A DNA stretch of 64,000 bases from Escallonia rubra (lineage: Eukaryota; Streptophyta; Magnoliopsida; Escalloniales; Escalloniaceae): the NCBI GenBank assembly GCA_033065855.1, contig JAVXUO010001346.1, positions 248,001-312,000 on the forward strand. Reading direction: 5' to 3'. Both the position numbers and the translations under genes were made by a program. Under the pieces are notes generated by a model. It was not told the DNA's origin. It was given only the letters and a program-made list of their open reading frames with translations, and searched no databases. Shown in pieces: positions 8,625 to 60,400 of the stretch. How positions within the stretch are numbered: the stretch's first letter is position 1; each line of letters begins with the position of its first letter.

Positions 8625-8997
8625 CTCCCTCCGTCCCTTTTTAAGTGAACCATTTTTTTTTACACGTATATTAAGGATTTAGGTTATATATTGTGTGTCT
8701 TTCCCATTTTACCCTTTAGAGAGAGGGGGGAAGAAAGTGGGCCATAAGAAAGAAAATTGGTTGGTAGAGTGTTAAATGTGGAGAGAGAAATAGTATAAAG
8801 TAGTGTAAAGTTGTGGGTCAGGAGAGAGAAAATGAGTTGGTAGAGAATTAATTGTAGTGAGAGAAATAGAATAAAAAATATATAAAAAAGGTAAATATGT
8901 AAAAATACCTACATAATATTTCCTAATTTGGAAGTGATCACTTTTTGTGAGACGGCCCAAAAAGGAAATTTGATCACTTTTTAAGGGACGGAGTGAG
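8625..8997. mobile_element. Stowaway MITE, copy 1 (373 bp)
   Basis: The left end reads CTCCCTCCGTCCCTTTTTAA and the right end carries its inverse, TTAAGGGACGGAGTGAG. The element is flanked by the TA target duplication expected of Tc1/mariner-type Stowaway elements (8623-8624 and 8998-8999). The body is AT-rich with GAGAGA runs and encodes nothing. It matches the element at 48124-48496 in the opposite orientation along its whole length, and both are 373 bp. Confidence 0.9.
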
Positions 8998-12595: not shown

Positions 12596-12944
12596 CTATG
12601 TTACATGGATTCGGTACAAATGTCCGGGCCGGATGCGTGTCCAAATGTCGGATTCGTCTAATTTTTTAAGCACAAGACACTGGGACACGGCAAAATATTC
12701 ATATCTAGCCTTACTTATTAATTAATTCTTAGGTAAAATGATGGTTTATGTGACGCACATGATTTTAGTTGAGAACTTGTCTTGTCTCAAAGCCAAAGAA
12801 ATCAAAAGAAACACTATAAGATAGTGTTCATAATAGCATATCTTATGAGATGTGTCAGAAACATATTCTATACCCATGTCGTTCAAGTGTCGAGTATCCG
12901 ACACAGATACCCTTCATGCATTCTGAAGAGTTCATGTAACGTAG
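12596..12944. mobile_element. hAT-like MITE, family copy 1 (349 bp)
   Basis: It starts CTATGTTACATGGATTCGG and ends with the inverse, GTTCATGTAACGTAG. It is about 85 percent similar by eye to the element at 58564-58899 along its whole length, in the same orientation, with shared blocks such as AATATTCATATCTAGC and AGAAACACTATAAGATAG. The flanks TTTAAGAC and TTTACAAC may be an 8-bp target duplication with two changes. No coding capacity. Confidence 0.8.

Positions 12945-18351: not shown

Positions 18352-18355
<4 letters not shown>
16976..18355. other. MYB upstream region
   Basis: Non-coding DNA between the MYB start and the (TA)n tract of the palindrome-bearing element. It includes the MYB 5' leader and promoter. 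Short frames near 17484-17843 and 17907-18188 have no recognisable family. Confidence 0.4.

Positions 18356-18356
<1 letters not shown>

Positions 18357-18396
<40 letters not shown>
18357..18396. repeat. (TA)n microsatellite, left flank
   Basis: About 20 TA units directly abut the left end of the palindrome-bearing element. A matching TA tract abuts its right end, so the element appears to have inserted into or duplicated a TA microsatellite. Confidence 0.95.
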
Positions 18397-18398
<2 letters not shown>

Positions 18399-19747
18399 GA
18401 GCTGATCCGTTGAGAGCGTTAGCAAAATAGGAGAAGTTGCAAGCGCGATCTGGCAGTCCATCCCGAAAGATGGACGGCCCAGATCTTTTTTTTTTTGCGT
18501 TTTCTTAAGTACTTTCGCTACATTATGTAGCGGACAATTTTTTGCCTTTTTTTGACAATAATACCCTCCGAGTCCGTCTGCTACATTATGTAGCAGACAA
18601 GTTTTCAGATCTTTTTTCTCTTTCTGTCTTTAATGTTCTGACAGAAATGACAGAGTTCGTTACGTCCGCTACATTATGTAGCGGACAAATAGACAGTCCG
18701 CTACATAATGTAGCGGACAACTAAACAGTATATTTTCTGACACATCTCTCTTTCACGTCAATTTCTCACTTTCTCTTGTCCTTTCTCTCTCTTCTTTTCT
18801 CTCAGATCTGTTTTGTTCTCTCTCATCCTCCTCTCCCATCCTGTTTGGAACAAGTTCAGCATTCATCCTCCTCCTCTCCCAAACCCTTCGTGCACCGAGA
18901 AGGAGGCGATCCTCGTCCTCCCGAACTGCCTCGCCAGGAACTCGTGCGGCGGCACCCGATCGTCGTCCTCCTCGAGATCCTCGCCGTCCACATCATCGTC
19001 GATGTCCCGACGCCGGTTGTCCTTGTAGTCCTCCTTCAATTTCGCCCAGTCCGGTATGTTCACCGGCAGCGACGACGCCGTCCCCCCGACCACCGCCTCA
19101 GCCCTCTTCGCCGCTGCCAGCGGCTTCTTCCTCGAACTCACCACCGGTTTCCTGTAGTTCGGCGACACGCCGCCGCCGCCGATCGAGCTTCACACGTCTG
19201 ATTCGTCGAGCTCCAAGCCCGAGTCTAGCCCGATGAAAAGAAAAGAAAAGCACAGATGAAAAGAATTTATTCAGTTGTTGAAGAAGAAGCAAAGGAGGAA
19301 TGGGGGAATGGAGTGGGGACAGCGAGAGAGAGAGAGAGAGAGAGAGATAGTCAGAAAATTGATGGGAGAGGGAGAGAGTGTGCCAGAACAGAAAGAAGAA
19401 AGAAAGGACAGAGAAAGAGATAGTCAGAAAAAGTTTGTCTCGAAAGTCCGCTACATTATGTAGCGGACAAGTTTTCAGAGAATATTTTTATCAAAAAATT
19501 GTCCGCTACATAATGTAGCGGACGGATTTAAAAAAAAAGTCAGAACAGTAGTCTCGATAGTCCGCTACATAATGTAGCGGATGAGCACAAAGGGTATTTT
19601 TGTCAAAAAATTGCCCGCTACATAATGTAGCGGACGTACTTAAAAAAATGCAAAAAAAAAAGATCTGGGCCGTCCATCTTTCGGGATGGACGGCCAGATC
19701 GCGCTTGCAACTTATCTTATTTTGCTAACGCTCTCAACGGATCAGCT

Positions 19748-19749
<2 letters not shown>
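18397..19749. mobile_element. Palindrome-bearing inverted-repeat element, 1.35 kb
   Basis: The two arms, about 18397-18720 and 19444-19749, are inverted copies. Both begin GGAGCTGATCCGTTGAGAG and share a small hairpin (GTCCATC, loop CCGAAA, GATGGAC). Each arm carries four copies of a 23-bp near-perfect palindrome with core CCGCTACATTATGTAGCGG, at 18514-18536, 18576-18598, 18664-18686, 18696-18718 and 19446-19468, 19501-19523, 19560-19582, 19613-19635. The centre base is T in the outer three and A in the innermost copy of each arm, read from its own end. The region between the arms holds a captured S40-like gene fragment and a GA microsatellite (19323-19348). There is no transposase frame. The flanks are (TA)n on both sides. 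It resembles rice Micron elements in its microsatellite flanks, but the inverted arms fit a TIR element. The family was not recognised. Confidence 0.85.
18880..19225 (-). pseudogene. Captured S40/DUF584 senescence-regulator fragment
   Basis: Read on the minus strand this gives LDSGLELDESDV, a stop at 19190-19192 where the family has Trp (SDVWS), then [30 protein letters not shown], an acidic run, and [20 protein letters not shown] followed by VHEGFGR. These are the central blocks of the plant S40 (DUF584) family. The usual start and the C-terminal block (TLKGRDLSRVRNAIW-like) are missing, so this is an internal piece of a host exon. It is GC-rich against AT-rich arms and lies between the inverted arms of the element, as in Pack-type transposons. 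A protein product of S40 type is unlikely. Confidence 0.8.
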
Positions 19750-19750
<1 letters not shown>

Positions 19751-19817
<67 letters not shown>

Positions 19818-19837
19818 TTATTTATTTATTTATTTAT
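19751..19837. repeat. (TA)n followed by (TTTA)n microsatellite
   Basis: About 31 TA units run from the right end of the large element, then change to TTTA units that run up to the left end of the small element at 19838. TTTA units resume after the small element, near 19940-19953. Confidence 0.95.
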
Positions 19838-19939
19838 GGGAGCTGATCCGTTGCTAGCGCTAGCAGAGTTGCTAGCGCTGTTTTGCCGTCCGCTACATTA
19901 TGTAGCGGACCTGCTAGCGCTAGCAATGGATCACGACCC
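19838..19939. mobile_element. Small hairpin element of the same family, 102 bp
   Basis: It begins GGGAGCTGATCCGTTGC, like the large element's end, and finishes GGATCACGACCC. It contains one copy of the 23-bp palindrome (19888-19910). The rest is also inverted: TGATCCGTTGCTAGCGCTAG pairs with the inverse of CTAGCGCTAGCAATGGATCA, so almost all of it can fold into one hairpin. TTTA repeats lie on both sides, so it too sits inside a microsatellite. It is non-coding. Confidence 0.8.
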
Positions 19940-20277
19940 TTTATTTATTTATTTATATTTGGATTTTGTTAATATCTTTTATGCCTTCCAAAACTCTAAT
20001 CCTATTTTTCAGATTCTTACAATTTTGAAATAGAGTTAAATAGGTGTTAAATTTTGAGTGGTCACAAAATAACCTCCAATCTCATGAACTCCCGCATGAT
20101 TTTTCTTCCCTCACTTCATTATTAAGTATCTCCGTTCCCGTGCATAGCAGGGGGTTTAGCCAGTCATATATAAACCAGATTAGTAATACGTCGTCATCTC
20201 GTCAAACTTCGAGCTTAATGGAAGAGAGAGTCTTTTCTTATAGGATAAATATCATCTTAACTTCAATTTAGATATAA

Positions 20278-20350
20278 GCGCCTGTAGCTCAGTGGATAGA
20301 GCGTCTGTTTCCTAAGCAGAAAGTCGAAGGTTCGACCCCTTCCTGGCGCG
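20278..20350 (+). tRNA. tRNA-Arg (anticodon CCU)
   Basis: A 73-base cloverleaf: acceptor GCGCCTG against CTGGCGC with discriminator G, D arm GCTCAGTGGATAGAGC, anticodon arm TCTGT-TTCCTAA-GCAGA with anticodon CCT, and T arm GAAGG-TTCGACC-CCTTC. No intron. The acceptor stem has one U-U opposition (position 6 with 67). A TTTT run near 20368, shortly after the gene, can serve as the RNA polymerase III terminator. The A box (TAGCTCAGTGG) and B box (GGTTCGACCCC) are intact. Confidence 0.96.
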
Positions 20351-26136: not shown

Positions 26137-26801
26137 GGGAAAATTATGTAAAAGTGGGTTTTGGGATAAAACTTTTGGGGATGGTGGGTTTTTTAAAAAA
26201 ACTTGTGAAAAAGGGGGGCCACTTTTGAAAATCTCTGAAAAAGGGGATTAGTTGGGAAAAAAGGGTTTTTTTTAAACCTGACTTTTCCATTTCCCAAATT
26301 ACCCCTCCTTTTGGAAATCGCGGTTTGAAACCACGACTTCAAAGTAGTAATCGCGGTTTTAAACAACGTTTTTAGTATATATATAAATGTTTTTCCTTTT
26401 AAATTACGCAGAAAATGAAAAAAAAATTGAAAACGTGGTTTTGAACCACGTTTTCTATTTAAAGTCGTGGTTCTGAACCACGTTTTCTATTTAAAAACGT
26501 GATTTTGAACCACGTTTTTTATTTAAAATTGTGATTTTGAACCACGTTTTCTACTAAACAGCGATTTTCACTTTAAAGTCGAGGTTTCAAACCGCAATTT
26601 TCAAAAGTGTTGTATGTGGGACAAACAAAGGGAGGGGTAATTTGGGAAATGGAAAAGTCAAGTTTAAAAAAAACTCTTTTTTCCCGACTAATCTCCTTTT
26701 TCAGAGATTTTCAAAAGTGGCCCCCCTTTTTCATAAGTTTTTTAAAAAAACCCACCATCCCCAAAAGTTTTATCCCAAAACCCACTTTTACATAATTTTC
26801 C
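26137..26801. mobile_element. Mutator-like long-TIR MITE (665 bp)
   Basis: Both ends begin GGGAAAATTATGTAAAAGTG and remain almost perfect inverted copies for about 190 bases. A perfect 9-bp target duplication, CTATTACAA, lies at 26128-26136 and 26802-26810, the hallmark of Mutator-like elements. The middle (about 26420-26580) has four imperfect units of about 36 bp, each with a small palindrome of the form GTGGTTTTGAACCAC. There is no transposase. The near-identity of the arms suggests a fairly recent insertion. Confidence 0.92.
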
Positions 26802-26985
26802 CTATTACAATGGTACCTGTGAACTTCCATTTTTCAGCTAAGATGAGCAATATGTAGTTTGCAGAAGATGCTACTTTGAGATACCTTTGAGTGGTATAGT
26901 TAGAAAATTTGTATATAGAATCCTTCCCTTAGTACGATCTTTTGGACATTACGGAGATTGCGAATTATGCTTGATACATGGCATG

Positions 26986-35752: not shown

Positions 35753-37126
35753 TGTAGGTCCCTAAATACACCTAGAGGGGGGGTGAATATGTGTTTTTCA
35801 ACTTAAATTATGAATTTAAAAATTAAGATTACAACGTAAAGACGGATACAACAATAACAAGATTAACACAGAGATTTATACTGGTTCGGCCCCACCAGCC
35901 TACGTCCAGTCCTCGAGCACTCCACACAAGGGAGACCTACTCGAGCCTTTCACTAAACCAGCTAGCTTCGGGTGCTAGCTCAAACCTCAGTACAATATCC
36001 AAAACCCTTCCTAGGTTTCCAACAGATTACAAATGAAAAGAGATTACAATTTGAGTACTATAAACAGGCTCCTTCTTGAGCAGAATATACAATGAAAGTT
36101 TTAAAGCTAAGCCTTCTTAGGTGGGAAGATCTAAATTCTTTCAAGAACAAAACCAAGAAGCTTACACAGAACTTTTTCTAAAGTGAACTCACTCAAAAGA
36201 TAATTGATAAGAACAAGAGATTGAGATGAGAGAGTTTTTCAGAGTGAAAATTTCGCGAGAGAAAAAGAAAATAAATGCGCTAACAGATTCCCTATTTATA
36301 CAGGAAGGAAATAGAGGACCGTTAGGTAGAAAAGCCAAACAAGAAGGATTCGACTAAAACATTTTAGCTTCGACTCAAATGTCTTGGCTTCGACTGAAAG
36401 TCTTGGCTTCGACTGAAAGTCTTAGCTTCGACTGAAAGTCTTGCCTTCGACTGAAATGTTTTGCTTCGACTAAAACATTTTGGTTTCGACTAAAAGTCTT
36501 GACTTCGACTGAAACACTTGGCTTCGACTGAAACACTTGGCTTCGACTGAAAGTCTTAGCTTCGACTAAAATGTTTTACTTCGACTAAAAGATTTTGACT
36601 TCGACTAAAACATTTTGGCTTCGACTAAAACATTTTGGCTTCGACTAAAAAGTCTTGACTTCGACTCAAAGTCTTGACTTCGACTGAAACACTTGGCTTC
36701 GACTGAAACACTTGACTTCGACTGAAAGTCTTAGCTTCGACTAAAAATATTTTGGTTTCGACTCAAAAACTTGACTTCGACTAAAAACACTTGGCTTCGT
36801 TCTTTACTAGAATTTCTGTCAGATCCTTTAAGAAAGGCTGTTTAAAGAAAAGATTAAAAGAAGAAAATATATACTTTAAGGTCTTGAATCTTTCTGTGTA
36901 GTCCAAAGCTTGAGTCCAAAGTCTTTTTCATCCATTGTCAAGGTCGTGCAAAGTCTTTGTCATCCATTATCAAGGTCATGCAAAGTCTGTCAATCTCTGT
37001 CATCCATGTCAAGATTATGTCTTTGTTTGACTAAGATAAAACCTGAAATGTTTTACCTTTAATAATATTGTCAGATTAAAGTTTAGATAAGTTAAGTCCG
37101 AAATCATGAAAATCAACAAGTCAACA
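35753..37126 (-). mobile_element. Solo LTR, probably SIRE/Maximus-type Copia (1374 bp)
   Basis: The ends are TG...CA (TGTAGGTCCC at left, AGTCAACA at right) with a perfect 5-bp target duplication GTGGG at 35748-35752 and 37127-37131. The block CACCTAGAGGGGGGG near the left end is, on the minus strand, the CCCCCCTCTAGG motif near the 3' end of LTRs of this Copia group. That sets the orientation as minus. No internal coding domain or second LTR is present, so it is a solo LTR left by recombination. It contains a minisatellite (listed separately). Its age cannot be measured from a single LTR; the intact target duplication suggests it is not very old. Confidence 0.85.
36345..36800. repeat. Minisatellite inside the solo LTR
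   Basis: About two dozen tandem units of 18-20 bp, each starting TTCGACT and continuing GAAAGTCTTGGC, GAAACACTTGGC, AAAACATTTTGGC or a close variant. The variants are arranged in blocks, which indicates repeated local duplication. Confidence 0.95.
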
Positions 37127-38832: not shown

Positions 38833-39770
38833 GGGATAATTGCGTAAAATACCCCTGTGGTTTGGGGTAGTTGCAAAATAACCCCTCCCGTTACAAAAAT
38901 TGCAAAAAGACACCTAAGATCTAAAAAGTGTTACACCCGTCAACTCTCGTTGCAGAATTAACGAATTTCCTAAACTACCCCGTATATAAGCACATTGGTC
39001 TGGTTCTTCTCTCCGGCGCACAAAGAATCAAACAATTTCTGGCCGTCTTCTTCGCCGGTTTCCGGTTGGCCTTTGGTTCTTCTCCTCGGCGCTATCACGG
39101 CCGTCGCCGGTGAGAACCGCGGCTCCCTCTCCCCTCCTCTCCCATTCCCCTGGTCCCCTGGCTTTCCCCCTTCCCTTCGGATTTACAGATTATGTCTTCT
39201 TCTTCCCCAAATCTTAAGCCCTAAATTCCACCGCCACTTCAATACGATCGCCACCGCCGTCGCTATCTACTCCGCCAAATCGCCGCAACCCCTCAAGCCC
39301 AAAACCTAGCCGCCACCCTCGTCAGGGCCCATCGACCACCCCTTTTCTGCCACCATTTTCAAGCCTCGTCCACCTCCGATTTGACCTTCGGTTCTTCTCC
39401 CCGGCGCTGTCACAGCCATCGCCGGTGACAACCGTGGCCCCCTCGCCCCTCCTCTCCCCTTCCCCTGGTCCCCTGCCTTTCCCTCTTCCCTTCTCCTCCC
39501 TTTCCCCGCTTTCCTGTTGTTTTCTTGCGCCGGCCCTAATTAGGGCTTGGCTGCAAGAGAGGTATCTAGGGGCAAAAATGGGTTTTCAATAATTATTTAT
39601 CAGTGACACTTGCTCTCTAGGCGCATTTACCACAAACGCGGTTAAAACATACGGTTTTATTGACGGATGTAACACTTTTAAAATCTTAGGTATCTTCTTG
39701 CAATTTTTGTAACGGGAATAGTTTTTTTGCAACTACTCCAAACCACATGGGTATTTTACGCAATTATTCC
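38833..39770. mobile_element. Pack-MULE-like element with captured GC-rich DNA
   Basis: Inverted arms of about 110 bases: GGGATAATTGCGTAAAATAC at left and GGAATAATTGCGTAAAATAC at right (other strand). A perfect 9-bp target duplication AAAATTAAT lies at 38824-38832 and 39771-39779, so this is Mutator-like. The interior, about 38990-39560, is GC-rich with C-rich coding-like or 5'-UTR-like text, unlike the AT-rich surroundings. It has two copies of a block of about 105 bp (39075-39178 and 39390-39498). The source gene was not recognised. There is no transposase. Confidence 0.88.
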
Positions 39771-57447: not shown

Positions 57448-60400
57448 TCAAATGCATTTTGCGAGGTCATTCTCATGAAAACAAGGAGTGTCTACCCTTG
57501 CAGCATTTTCTCCGCTAAGGGGTGGATGAAGAGCTGTCAAGTTGGGATCATCCTTGTGCTTGCTCCAAGCTGCTTCAAACTGTGGGCCTTTACATCTAGA
57601 AAAAAGGCAGATCAAGAATGACTTAATTTTTGGAAAGCATTGTATGTTAATATTAAGATATAGACAAATATTTACTGCTGGAGCAAGACTAGTATCTGAA
57701 GAACACGTGCTCTAATATCTTCACGAGCAATTTTAACTGCTGCCTCTTTGTATAAGATTACCAGTTCATCCACTAATCTGGAAGAATAAGGATTGTATTA
57801 GCACAGCAGAGAGAACATGAAAGGAGAAAGAGAGAAGCACAACAATCTGGTCAGCCTGGTGTAAGCGTAAGTCACAACTTCCTAAACAAAGAAAGAAGGA
57901 AAGAATGACCAAGTCCATAGAAGATAGTAAAGAATTTTGAAACAACTCTGTTCCTAGATGTATCCCATGAGAACAGGTCGATAAATTTGTTCAAAACGTG
58001 TGTGCCTCAATATTCATACTCTGATACAAGATCTTATATGTCAGTTCTATTTATCTCGGCTACATTCTATGTTCTACAACATTTAGATAAATTTAACTTG
58101 TCGAACCAGTAAAATAATAACATCATTCAAACTGCAATGCTGTAAAACAGCTATTTACTTGTTTAAAACTTCAAATGCAACACTGGACAATAAGGACTGA
58201 TTTTATCTCCATTTCCCATGCACTTTCTTTTCTTATTCCTTGTTTTTCTTCTATTTATCACTAAAGGAATTTCAAAGGCCACCTGTTGCAATAAAGTAGG
58301 AACATTACATGGTTCACCTTTCAATATATGGAGAATTCCTTATCCACGTTAACTTGATAACAGTTTTGACCTGGTCGAGAACCTGCAAATTTCGCAATGG
58401 CTTTTGATTTGTCCCGACAATTGGAAAGACAGAAAGCACAAGATGAGACGTATGCATAGCTGAAATTTACATCACAATACAATGTACTAAAAATCATCTT
58501 GCATCACAATATATGCTTCCATTGATAAATATTTAACCAGTTTTATCAATAAAGACATCAGTGCTATGTTACATGGACTCGGTACAAGTGTCCAGGTCGG
58601 ATACATATCCAAGTGTCGGATTCGTCTAATTTTTAAAACAAAAGACATGGGGACATGGCAAAATATTCATATCTAGCATTACTTATTTATTATTTCTAAC
58701 GTAAAATGATGTTTTACGTAACGCACATGGTTTAGTTGAGAAATTGTCTGTCTCAAAGCCAAAGAAATCAAAAGAAACACTATAAGATAGTGTTCATAGT
58801 AGCATATCCTATGAGATGCGTCGGACACATATCCCATGTCCAAGTGTCGAGTGTCTAACACGGGTACTTCATGCATTCTGAAGAGTCCATGTAACATAGC
58901 ATCAGTGAACTAGTACTTGACAACTTGCAAGTGAGCAACTAAAGCAAAAAACTGGGTGCTGCACTACCAGTGGCCTCACATAGAGTCCACTCTACTGATA
59001 ATTGATTGTGTTATTCTGCACATAAAAATCCGTTGGAATCTCTATGATTGCGCATGATATGTGACCAGAATCCAACATCTCCGCACAATAATTTTATATA
59101 ACGACATATTAACCAAAAATGGTACACAGAAGACAACAATAACATCTCAACCTAACAGTGTATATACCTTATAGTGGCATAACGTAGATTCCAATGAGCA
59201 ACCACATCCCAAAGACAATCAAAATAGCTAGATGATCAAAATGATTTCTAGGGCTGAAAAAGGCAATTGCCTCTTACCAGTACAACAGTTTCATCATCAT
59301 CAGCGTGCATCCACTGAAAGAAAAGCGGAAATATACGCTTGAAATGAGCTAACAGCACAAGACCCATACCGTTGAGCAGTAGCTCTATATGGTTAAGCCA
59401 CGCAATTCGGCGTTCCTTATTTCTTGGCTGTCGCTCTAAGTGACTCAGCATCTCATTTAGCAACTTTTCATACCTACACCGAAGAGCAAACGACAATAAA
59501 AAAGAGCTGCAGTCAATCATAAAAGTTGTTCAATGACGTTTTAGTAGGACAATTTAAAAGGAAGTGTATATAATTATACCCACATATATAGCTCAATTTT
59601 CACAATGTTCAAAGAAAGTGTTATTTCGTAAATTGTATCCTATGTTCCAAAACTTATACTGTTTACAATAAAGACTCCAGTCTGAATAACAGAGAATGAG
59701 TGTGATTCTGAAAAATCCATGTCCAAATATCGCGACCCAGGAGATCTCATAGGCAAAAAAACCACACTTTATCAACTTCTTGTAGACCTAAATCTGCCAT
59801 CATAGTCTGCTATGGTCCGTATCATGACACTTCGTCCAAACGACTAATGATAATGTCGCTGCCATTTGGTTTATTCTCTCCTCAACTTGTGTTTACTAAT
59901 ATTTTCAACTACGTCACTACGATGACAGAAAAGCTATCTTTTGATGTCAAGTAACATGATGCAAGACAAGAATGTGAAGAAGATCAAACAACACAAACTA
60001 TACCATTTGCTACGAGGATTACTTCGCTGTGTACTTGTCACTAGGAGCACCGACATCTCAACCACATAGTCCCAGATCTCATCACTTCCAGCAACATTTT
60101 GGCAGCATGCATCAAGGATAACATCTTCATACCAACTAAGCTCTGCAGCATTTACATTTTTCGCAAGATGTATGAAACTAATCATGCCCTGCCCCTGAGA
60201 TAAGAAAAGGAAATGAACATTAACAACAACCAAAAGCGAGATGCTAACACTTTTCGTGTTTTGAATCTGGAGATGCTAATCCAGTAGGCTCACTGGGTTG
60301 TAAAGATTAGAAAGTGGTAACATCAAATGCCATCAAAATACAGGACATATCTTCGCACCAAAACTGAACCAGAAACTCGTAGAAATGAGAAGTAAAGATA

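Follow-up and report, generated by a model that had tools for sequence, protein, structure and literature searches.

Several families of non-autonomous Mutator-like elements (MULEs) that target TA microsatellites have been described, namely Micron, TAFT, MuTAnT, SaTar, Ac-mMITE and MiM, and elements of this kind are known to form non-nested arrays. For MuTAnT of Medicago truncatula, 218 copies have been described, along with a putative autonomous element of 4.9 kb (PMC4486113). SaTars occur in guayule, rice, sorghum and citrus, Micron being rSaTar2 and classed as Mutator-like, and their hallmark is non-nested neighbours linked by microsatellite (PMC5907723). TAFT is mentioned as the maize member of the kind (PMC4486113, PMC5907723). 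A 9-bp duplication is characteristic of MuTAnT and is the usual length for rice MULEs (PMC4486113, PMC5907723). Long Mutator terminal inverted repeats (TIRs) harbour transposase-binding sites (PMC3310237). How such elements find TA microsatellites is called unclear in one account (PMC8227079) and is the subject of a speculative model in another (PMC5907723).

We analysed a window of 64 kb, by which we mean the whole stretch of DNA under study, with an overall GC content of 39%. Its plant origin is indicated by frame 1954-2532, whose best relative in the PDB is COI1 (E 1.4e-62). Pfam scans, which covered 80 of the window's 84 stop-to-stop frames of at least 90 aa, identified FBPase, adenylosuccinate lyase, Nramp, F-box_5, Transp_inhibit and Senescence_reg domains and no transposase, of the mudrA type or any other, as expected for a non-autonomous copy. 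An RNA element was considered as the identity of the locus and rejected, Rfam having returned nothing but a tRNA at 20278-20350. With a probability of roughly 0.75, we read the locus as two non-autonomous members of a single Mutator-like family that lie side by side in a microsatellite, the larger with a captured S40-type gene piece, and whose palindromes would serve as dimer sites. The initial annotation had held that the structure matches no family that could be named. At the level of the kind this does not stand, since long inverted repeats with (TA)n flanks have been published as MuTAnT (PMC4486113), SaTar (PMC5907723), Ac-mMITE (PMC8449440) and MiM (PMC8227079). The elements and their surroundings are as follows:

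18355-18396, no strand: (AT)21 microsatellite, left flank and target of the large element; only one TA run of the window is longer
18397-19749, no strand: large element, 1353 bp, from GGGAGCTGATCC to GGATCAGCTCC
18398-18495, plus strand: left outer TIR, 98 nt, 97% complementary to 19652-19749, containing the GTCCATC/GATGGAC hairpin
18866-19189, minus strand: captured, truncated Senescence_reg gene piece with an open frame; Pfam match of 87 residues, profile positions 64-145 of 167
19652-19749, minus strand: right outer TIR, with one terminal G fewer than the left end
19750-19813, no strand: (AT)32 microsatellite that separates the two elements; no TA run of the window is longer, and it continues into (TTTA)6 at 19813-19836
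19838-19939, no strand: small element, 102 bp, from GGGAGCTGATCCGTTG to GATCACGACCC, with the 14-bp palindrome TGCTAGCGCTAGCA near each end
19940-19955, no strand: (TTTA)4, flanking the small element on its right

The span first proposed for the element, 18357-19837, does enclose it but takes in microsatellite as well, the element proper being 18397-19749. Its left end starts with GGG and its right end has one G less; in MuTAnT, too, the tip G-run and the number of distal G/C vary (PMC4486113). Long TIRs, a MULE trait, are present: the outermost 98 nt of the two arms differ at three positions (95/98 identical) and are followed inwards by further collinear homology, with a second inverted stretch of 58 nt (91%) that carries the outermost palindrome and a third of 51 nt (82%) that carries the next. 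Farther inwards, the arms are alignable only with several gaps. A recent origin, which had been proposed from the similarity of the arms, has support only in the tip positions; the inner arms are more diverged. The second hairpin, GTCCATC/GATGGAC, was correctly placed near both tips. Modules of palindrome and flank are duplicated within the right arm, in part as a tandem repeat of 112 bp (1.9 copies). MULEs and Pack-MULEs with tandem TIRs resemble the large element in the repeated internal units of their ends, their GC-rich gene fragment and a size class of 1.3-1.4 kb; they repeat whole TIRs in tandem, whereas the repeats here are 23-bp palindromes (PMC3310237).

The presence of (TA)n at both ends of the large element is confirmed, (AT)21 on the left and (AT)32 on the right being the two longest of the window's four TA runs that reach seven units or more (9, 12, 21 and 32 units). 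The window contains only two (TTTA) runs of at least three units, and both, (TTTA)6 and (TTTA)4, flank the small element. Simple-repeat flanks, a trait of MULEs that target TA microsatellites, are therefore present at each element, and the two elements, which have the same tip, are placed side by side and un-nested at one locus, joined by microsatellite. In these respects the locus resembles MuTAnT, with its (TA)n flanks and long modular foldback-like inverted repeats (PMC4486113), the SaTars, non-autonomous MULEs that occupy (TA)n as well as other simple repeats and adjoin one another without ever being nested (PMC5907723), and Ac-mMITE of pineapple (PMC8449440) and MiM of carrot (PMC8227079), both of them MITEs associated with TA microsatellites and tied to Mutator, of which Ac-mMITE also forms adjacent clusters (PMC8449440). 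It differs from MuTAnT, which has the tip GGGGTTTGCTAGAACA and sizes of 200 bp to 1.6 kb (PMC4486113), and from Ac-mMITE, which measures 210-570 bp and ends mostly in GA/TC (PMC8449440).

We compared the flanks of each element for target duplications, which in MULEs measure 8-11 bp and mostly 9. At the small element, exact identity is found only at 5, 9, 13 and 17 bp among the lengths of 2-20 bp tested, so that the Mutator-typical 9 bp is compatible and 2, 3 and 8 bp are incompatible; such a fit in phase has a chance probability of about 1 in 4. In MuTAnT, the 9-bp duplication is likewise seen in copies outside perfect TA runs (PMC4486113). At the large element only even lengths fit, with 2, 8 and 10 bp compatible and 9 bp not, a misfit for which bases lost at the shortened right end could account. 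The even lengths also agree with insertion of (TA)n-flanked elements through a circular intermediate that recombines homologously with microsatellite filler, instead of by direct transposition, a model proposed for SaTars whose flanks misfit a duplication (PMC5907723); the fit of a 9-bp duplication at the small element speaks against this route, which we regard as improbable. A cut-and-paste element of another superfamily (hAT, CACTA, PIF/Harbinger or Tc1/mariner) that landed in AT-rich repeats by chance would be compatible with flank lengths of 2 and 8 bp (8 bp being that of hAT) at the large element and with a window whose scanned frames offer no transposase to decide the matter. The same explanation conflicts with the small element, where 2, 3 and 8 bp do not fit, and with the combination of long inverted ends that begin with GGG, a captured gene piece and insertion targeted to TA microsatellites, which is that published for Mutator-like elements (PMC4486113, PMC5907723, PMC8449440); we consider it distinctly improbable. 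Two other long-TIR elements in the window, with exact 8-bp and 9-bp duplications, lend support to the Mutator-like reading.

The first of these, at 26137-26802, has 178-nt arms (96%), GGG...CCC ends and the 8-bp flank duplication TATTACAA, and contains an internal 32-bp tandem array with the 17-bp palindrome CGTGGTTCTGAACCACG. The second, at 38833-39770, measures 938 bp and has 112-nt arms (89%) and the 9-bp duplication AAAATTAAT; its interior reaches 59% GC over 39000-39560 and includes a 113-bp direct repeat, and it is likely a second Pack-MULE-like copy. Other repeats in the window include CTCCCTCCGTCC at 8625-8636, which adjoins TA and which we take to resemble the tip of a Stowaway MITE, a dispersed repeat of about 280 bp whose two copies share one orientation (12596-12879 and 58564-58845, 86-90% identical, about 46 kb apart), and a 19-bp unit in tandem at 36349-36799 (22 copies, higher-order period 96 bp).

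Between the arms of the large element, the minus-strand frame 18866-19189 matches the Pfam family Senescence_reg (PF04520), which we take to be S40/DUF584, with an E value of 2.2e-17 and 64.8 bits against a cut-off of 22. The match is cut off at the C-terminal end relative to the profile, and its coverage implies that both gene ends are missing or unmatched. The stretch 18866-19233 has a GC content of 64%, against 41% for the remainder of the element. A host gene fragment between the ends, the trait of a Pack-MULE, is therefore present. We also considered whether the TGA upstream of the captured frame is a broken codon of what is presumably a conserved tryptophan motif in the gene piece. Reading it as W raises the score from 64.8 to 68.8 bits and leaves the aligned stretch unchanged, and the 26-residue piece has no match on its own; given this small gain and the absence of a match, we make no claim that a conserved tryptophan was hit. 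Gene pieces of the host are carried by derivatives of Muta1, an active MULE of Aedes aegypti, as by the large element (PMC5225508), whereas three of the five rice SaTar families are typed as non-Pack-MULE (PMC5907723). Gene capture is not described for MuTAnT in the accessible part of its account (PMC4486113). Our literature searches for a Pack-MULE combined with TA repeats or microsatellite and a senescence regulator did not find this combination.

The small element has the same terminal 16 bp, GGGAGCTGATCCGTTG, as the left end of the large element. Its two 28-bp ends are identical to each other at 24 of 28 positions, and its left 28 bp match the left end of the large element at 25 of 28. The interiors of the two elements differ; tip and palindrome are common to both. 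As neighbours, the two may share descent at this locus. These observations bear on the possibility that an inverted duplication around a microsatellite made arms and palindromes by local rearrangement, with no mobile element involved. Such an origin would be consistent with a palindrome that, in the window, is confined to this locus and with the duplication of palindrome and flank modules within the right arm. It is difficult to reconcile with a differently built second element that has the same 16-bp tip and palindrome and sits in another repeat, or with a gene piece of foreign composition between the arms, and we judge it very improbable. The inverted ends in microsatellite, the captured gene piece and the second element with the same tip and palindrome and another interior thus argue for a mobile element, as the initial annotation had proposed, rather than for a local rearrangement.

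Allowing at most three mismatches, the 64 kb contain nine copies of the palindrome core CCGCTACATWATGTAGCGG (expected mean 0.01; none of 100 shuffles reaches nine). Eight copies lie within the arms of the large element and one in the small element, and the window holds none beyond this locus:

18513-18535, plus strand: palindrome 1, left arm, departs from the consensus at two positions, dyad perfect over 17 bp
18576-18598, plus strand: palindrome 2, left arm, GTCTGC...GCAGAC, two symmetric changes (positions 4 and 20) that keep the perfect dyad
18664-18686, plus strand: palindrome 3, left arm, perfect
18696-18718, minus strand: palindrome 4, left arm, perfect, in opposite orientation by its centre base
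19446-19468, plus strand: palindrome 4, right arm, perfect, in opposite orientation
19501-19523, minus strand: palindrome 3, right arm, perfect
19560-19582, minus strand: palindrome 2, right arm, one change, dyad over 21 bp
19613-19635, minus strand: palindrome 1, right arm, one change, dyad over 19 bp
19888-19910, plus strand: ninth palindrome, in the small element, perfect

The initial annotation described four 23-bp palindromes per arm in regularly mirrored order. The count is borne out, with a full 23-bp dyad in five of the eight and perfect dyads over 21, 19 and 17 bp in the others. The order of the centres is mirrored as well, the outer three of each arm having T and the innermost A when read inwards. 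The regularity does not extend to the spacing, which from outside to inside is 63, 88 and 32 on the left and 53, 59 and 55 on the right. Because of these unequal spacings and the tandem duplication in the right arm, the equal counts may be partly accidental, and we do not retain four mirrored copies per arm as a design rule.

Perfect odd-centred dyads with arms of at least 9 bp number ten in the window, eight of them at this locus, compared with zero to two in 20 dinucleotide shuffles; with arms of 11 bp there are six, compared with none in any of the 20 shuffles. With the centre base used to orient the nine copies, pairwise identity averages 0.943 within the 23-mer and falls to 0.378 and 0.408 in the 10 bp next to it on either side and to 0.326 and 0.323 over 30 bp. 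All nine copies agree in the 15 innermost bases. Six substitutions from the consensus are found, of which two compensate each other (copy at 18576) and four are uncompensated and break the dyad. This pattern points to constraint on the symmetry of the palindrome, the single compensated pair being a thin indication that hairpin-templated repair could also produce.

An account without binding sites is that the palindromes are repeats prone to form hairpins, and that they owe their similarity to replication slippage, template switching or gene conversion, with the double change in copy 2 as a product of hairpin-templated repair. The perfect inverted symmetry, the duplication of palindrome modules with their flanks in subsets, including the 112-bp unit, and a predicted DNA fold in which the palindromes pair with one another are all compatible with it. 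What it accommodates poorly is the perfect palindrome of the small element, which has no alignable flank beyond the 23-mer and for which conversion between the arms alone is insufficient. We regard this account as unlikely, though by a smaller measure than the alternatives discussed above.

Exact matches to the 19-base core elsewhere, in one viral and two genomic stretches from collections without plants, are single hairpins that lack the GTCC...GGAC frame of the 23-mer and were taken as chance; one of the three stretches was examined whole and does not contain the tip sequence. Since these collections contain no plants, the negative carries little weight. Searches of published text, excluding supplements, with two 15-mers, the 19-mer and the 16-bp tip gave no match. 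Muta1 has 145-bp TIRs with an imperfect palindromic tip and nine copies of a 12-bp subterminal repeat; these repeats are short tandem units, unlike the 23-bp palindromes here (PMC5225508), and the accessible part of its account describes no targeting of TA microsatellites. The terms 'palindrom', 'hairpin' and 'subterminal' are absent from the main text of the SaTar paper (PMC5907723), 'palindrom' and 'microsatellite' from the accessible text of the tandem-TIR paper (PMC3310237), and palindromes receive no mention for Ac-mMITE in the corresponding portion of PMC8449440. No 23-bp palindrome array appears in the accessible main-text accounts of MuTAnT (PMC4486113), SaTar, Ac-mMITE, MiM, Muta1 or tandem-TIR MULEs, a comparison that covers neither supplements nor repeat libraries.

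We infer that both elements belong to the Mutator-like superfamily, that they would be mobile in trans and that the palindrome is a candidate binding site. According to this Mutator-like reading, the two elements would lie un-nested in a microsatellite of mixed type, (TA)n(TTTA)n, each moved by cut-and-paste through a transposase encoded elsewhere in the genome. This transposase would recognise the GGGAGCTGATCCGTTG tips and presumably the palindromes, each of which could offer a dimer two half-sites, and integration would prefer TA-rich simple repeats. The large element would be a Pack-MULE-like copy that took up part of an S40-type gene. More specifically, and only tentatively, we propose a TA-microsatellite-targeting Mutator-like family whose transposase recognises mirrored arrays of the 23-bp palindrome as dimer sites, reduced to a single site in the 102-bp element.

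Apart from the palindromes, the locus adds one more well-preserved case to a described kind. The kind is already known; the noteworthy feature is the palindromic array together with its minimal 102-bp sibling. A family in which members of 102 bp and 1.35 kb have nothing but the tips and one palindrome in common would narrow the sequences needed in cis. If the proposed recognition of the palindromes is true, the 102-bp element would approximate a natural minimal substrate, consisting of two tips and one palindrome.
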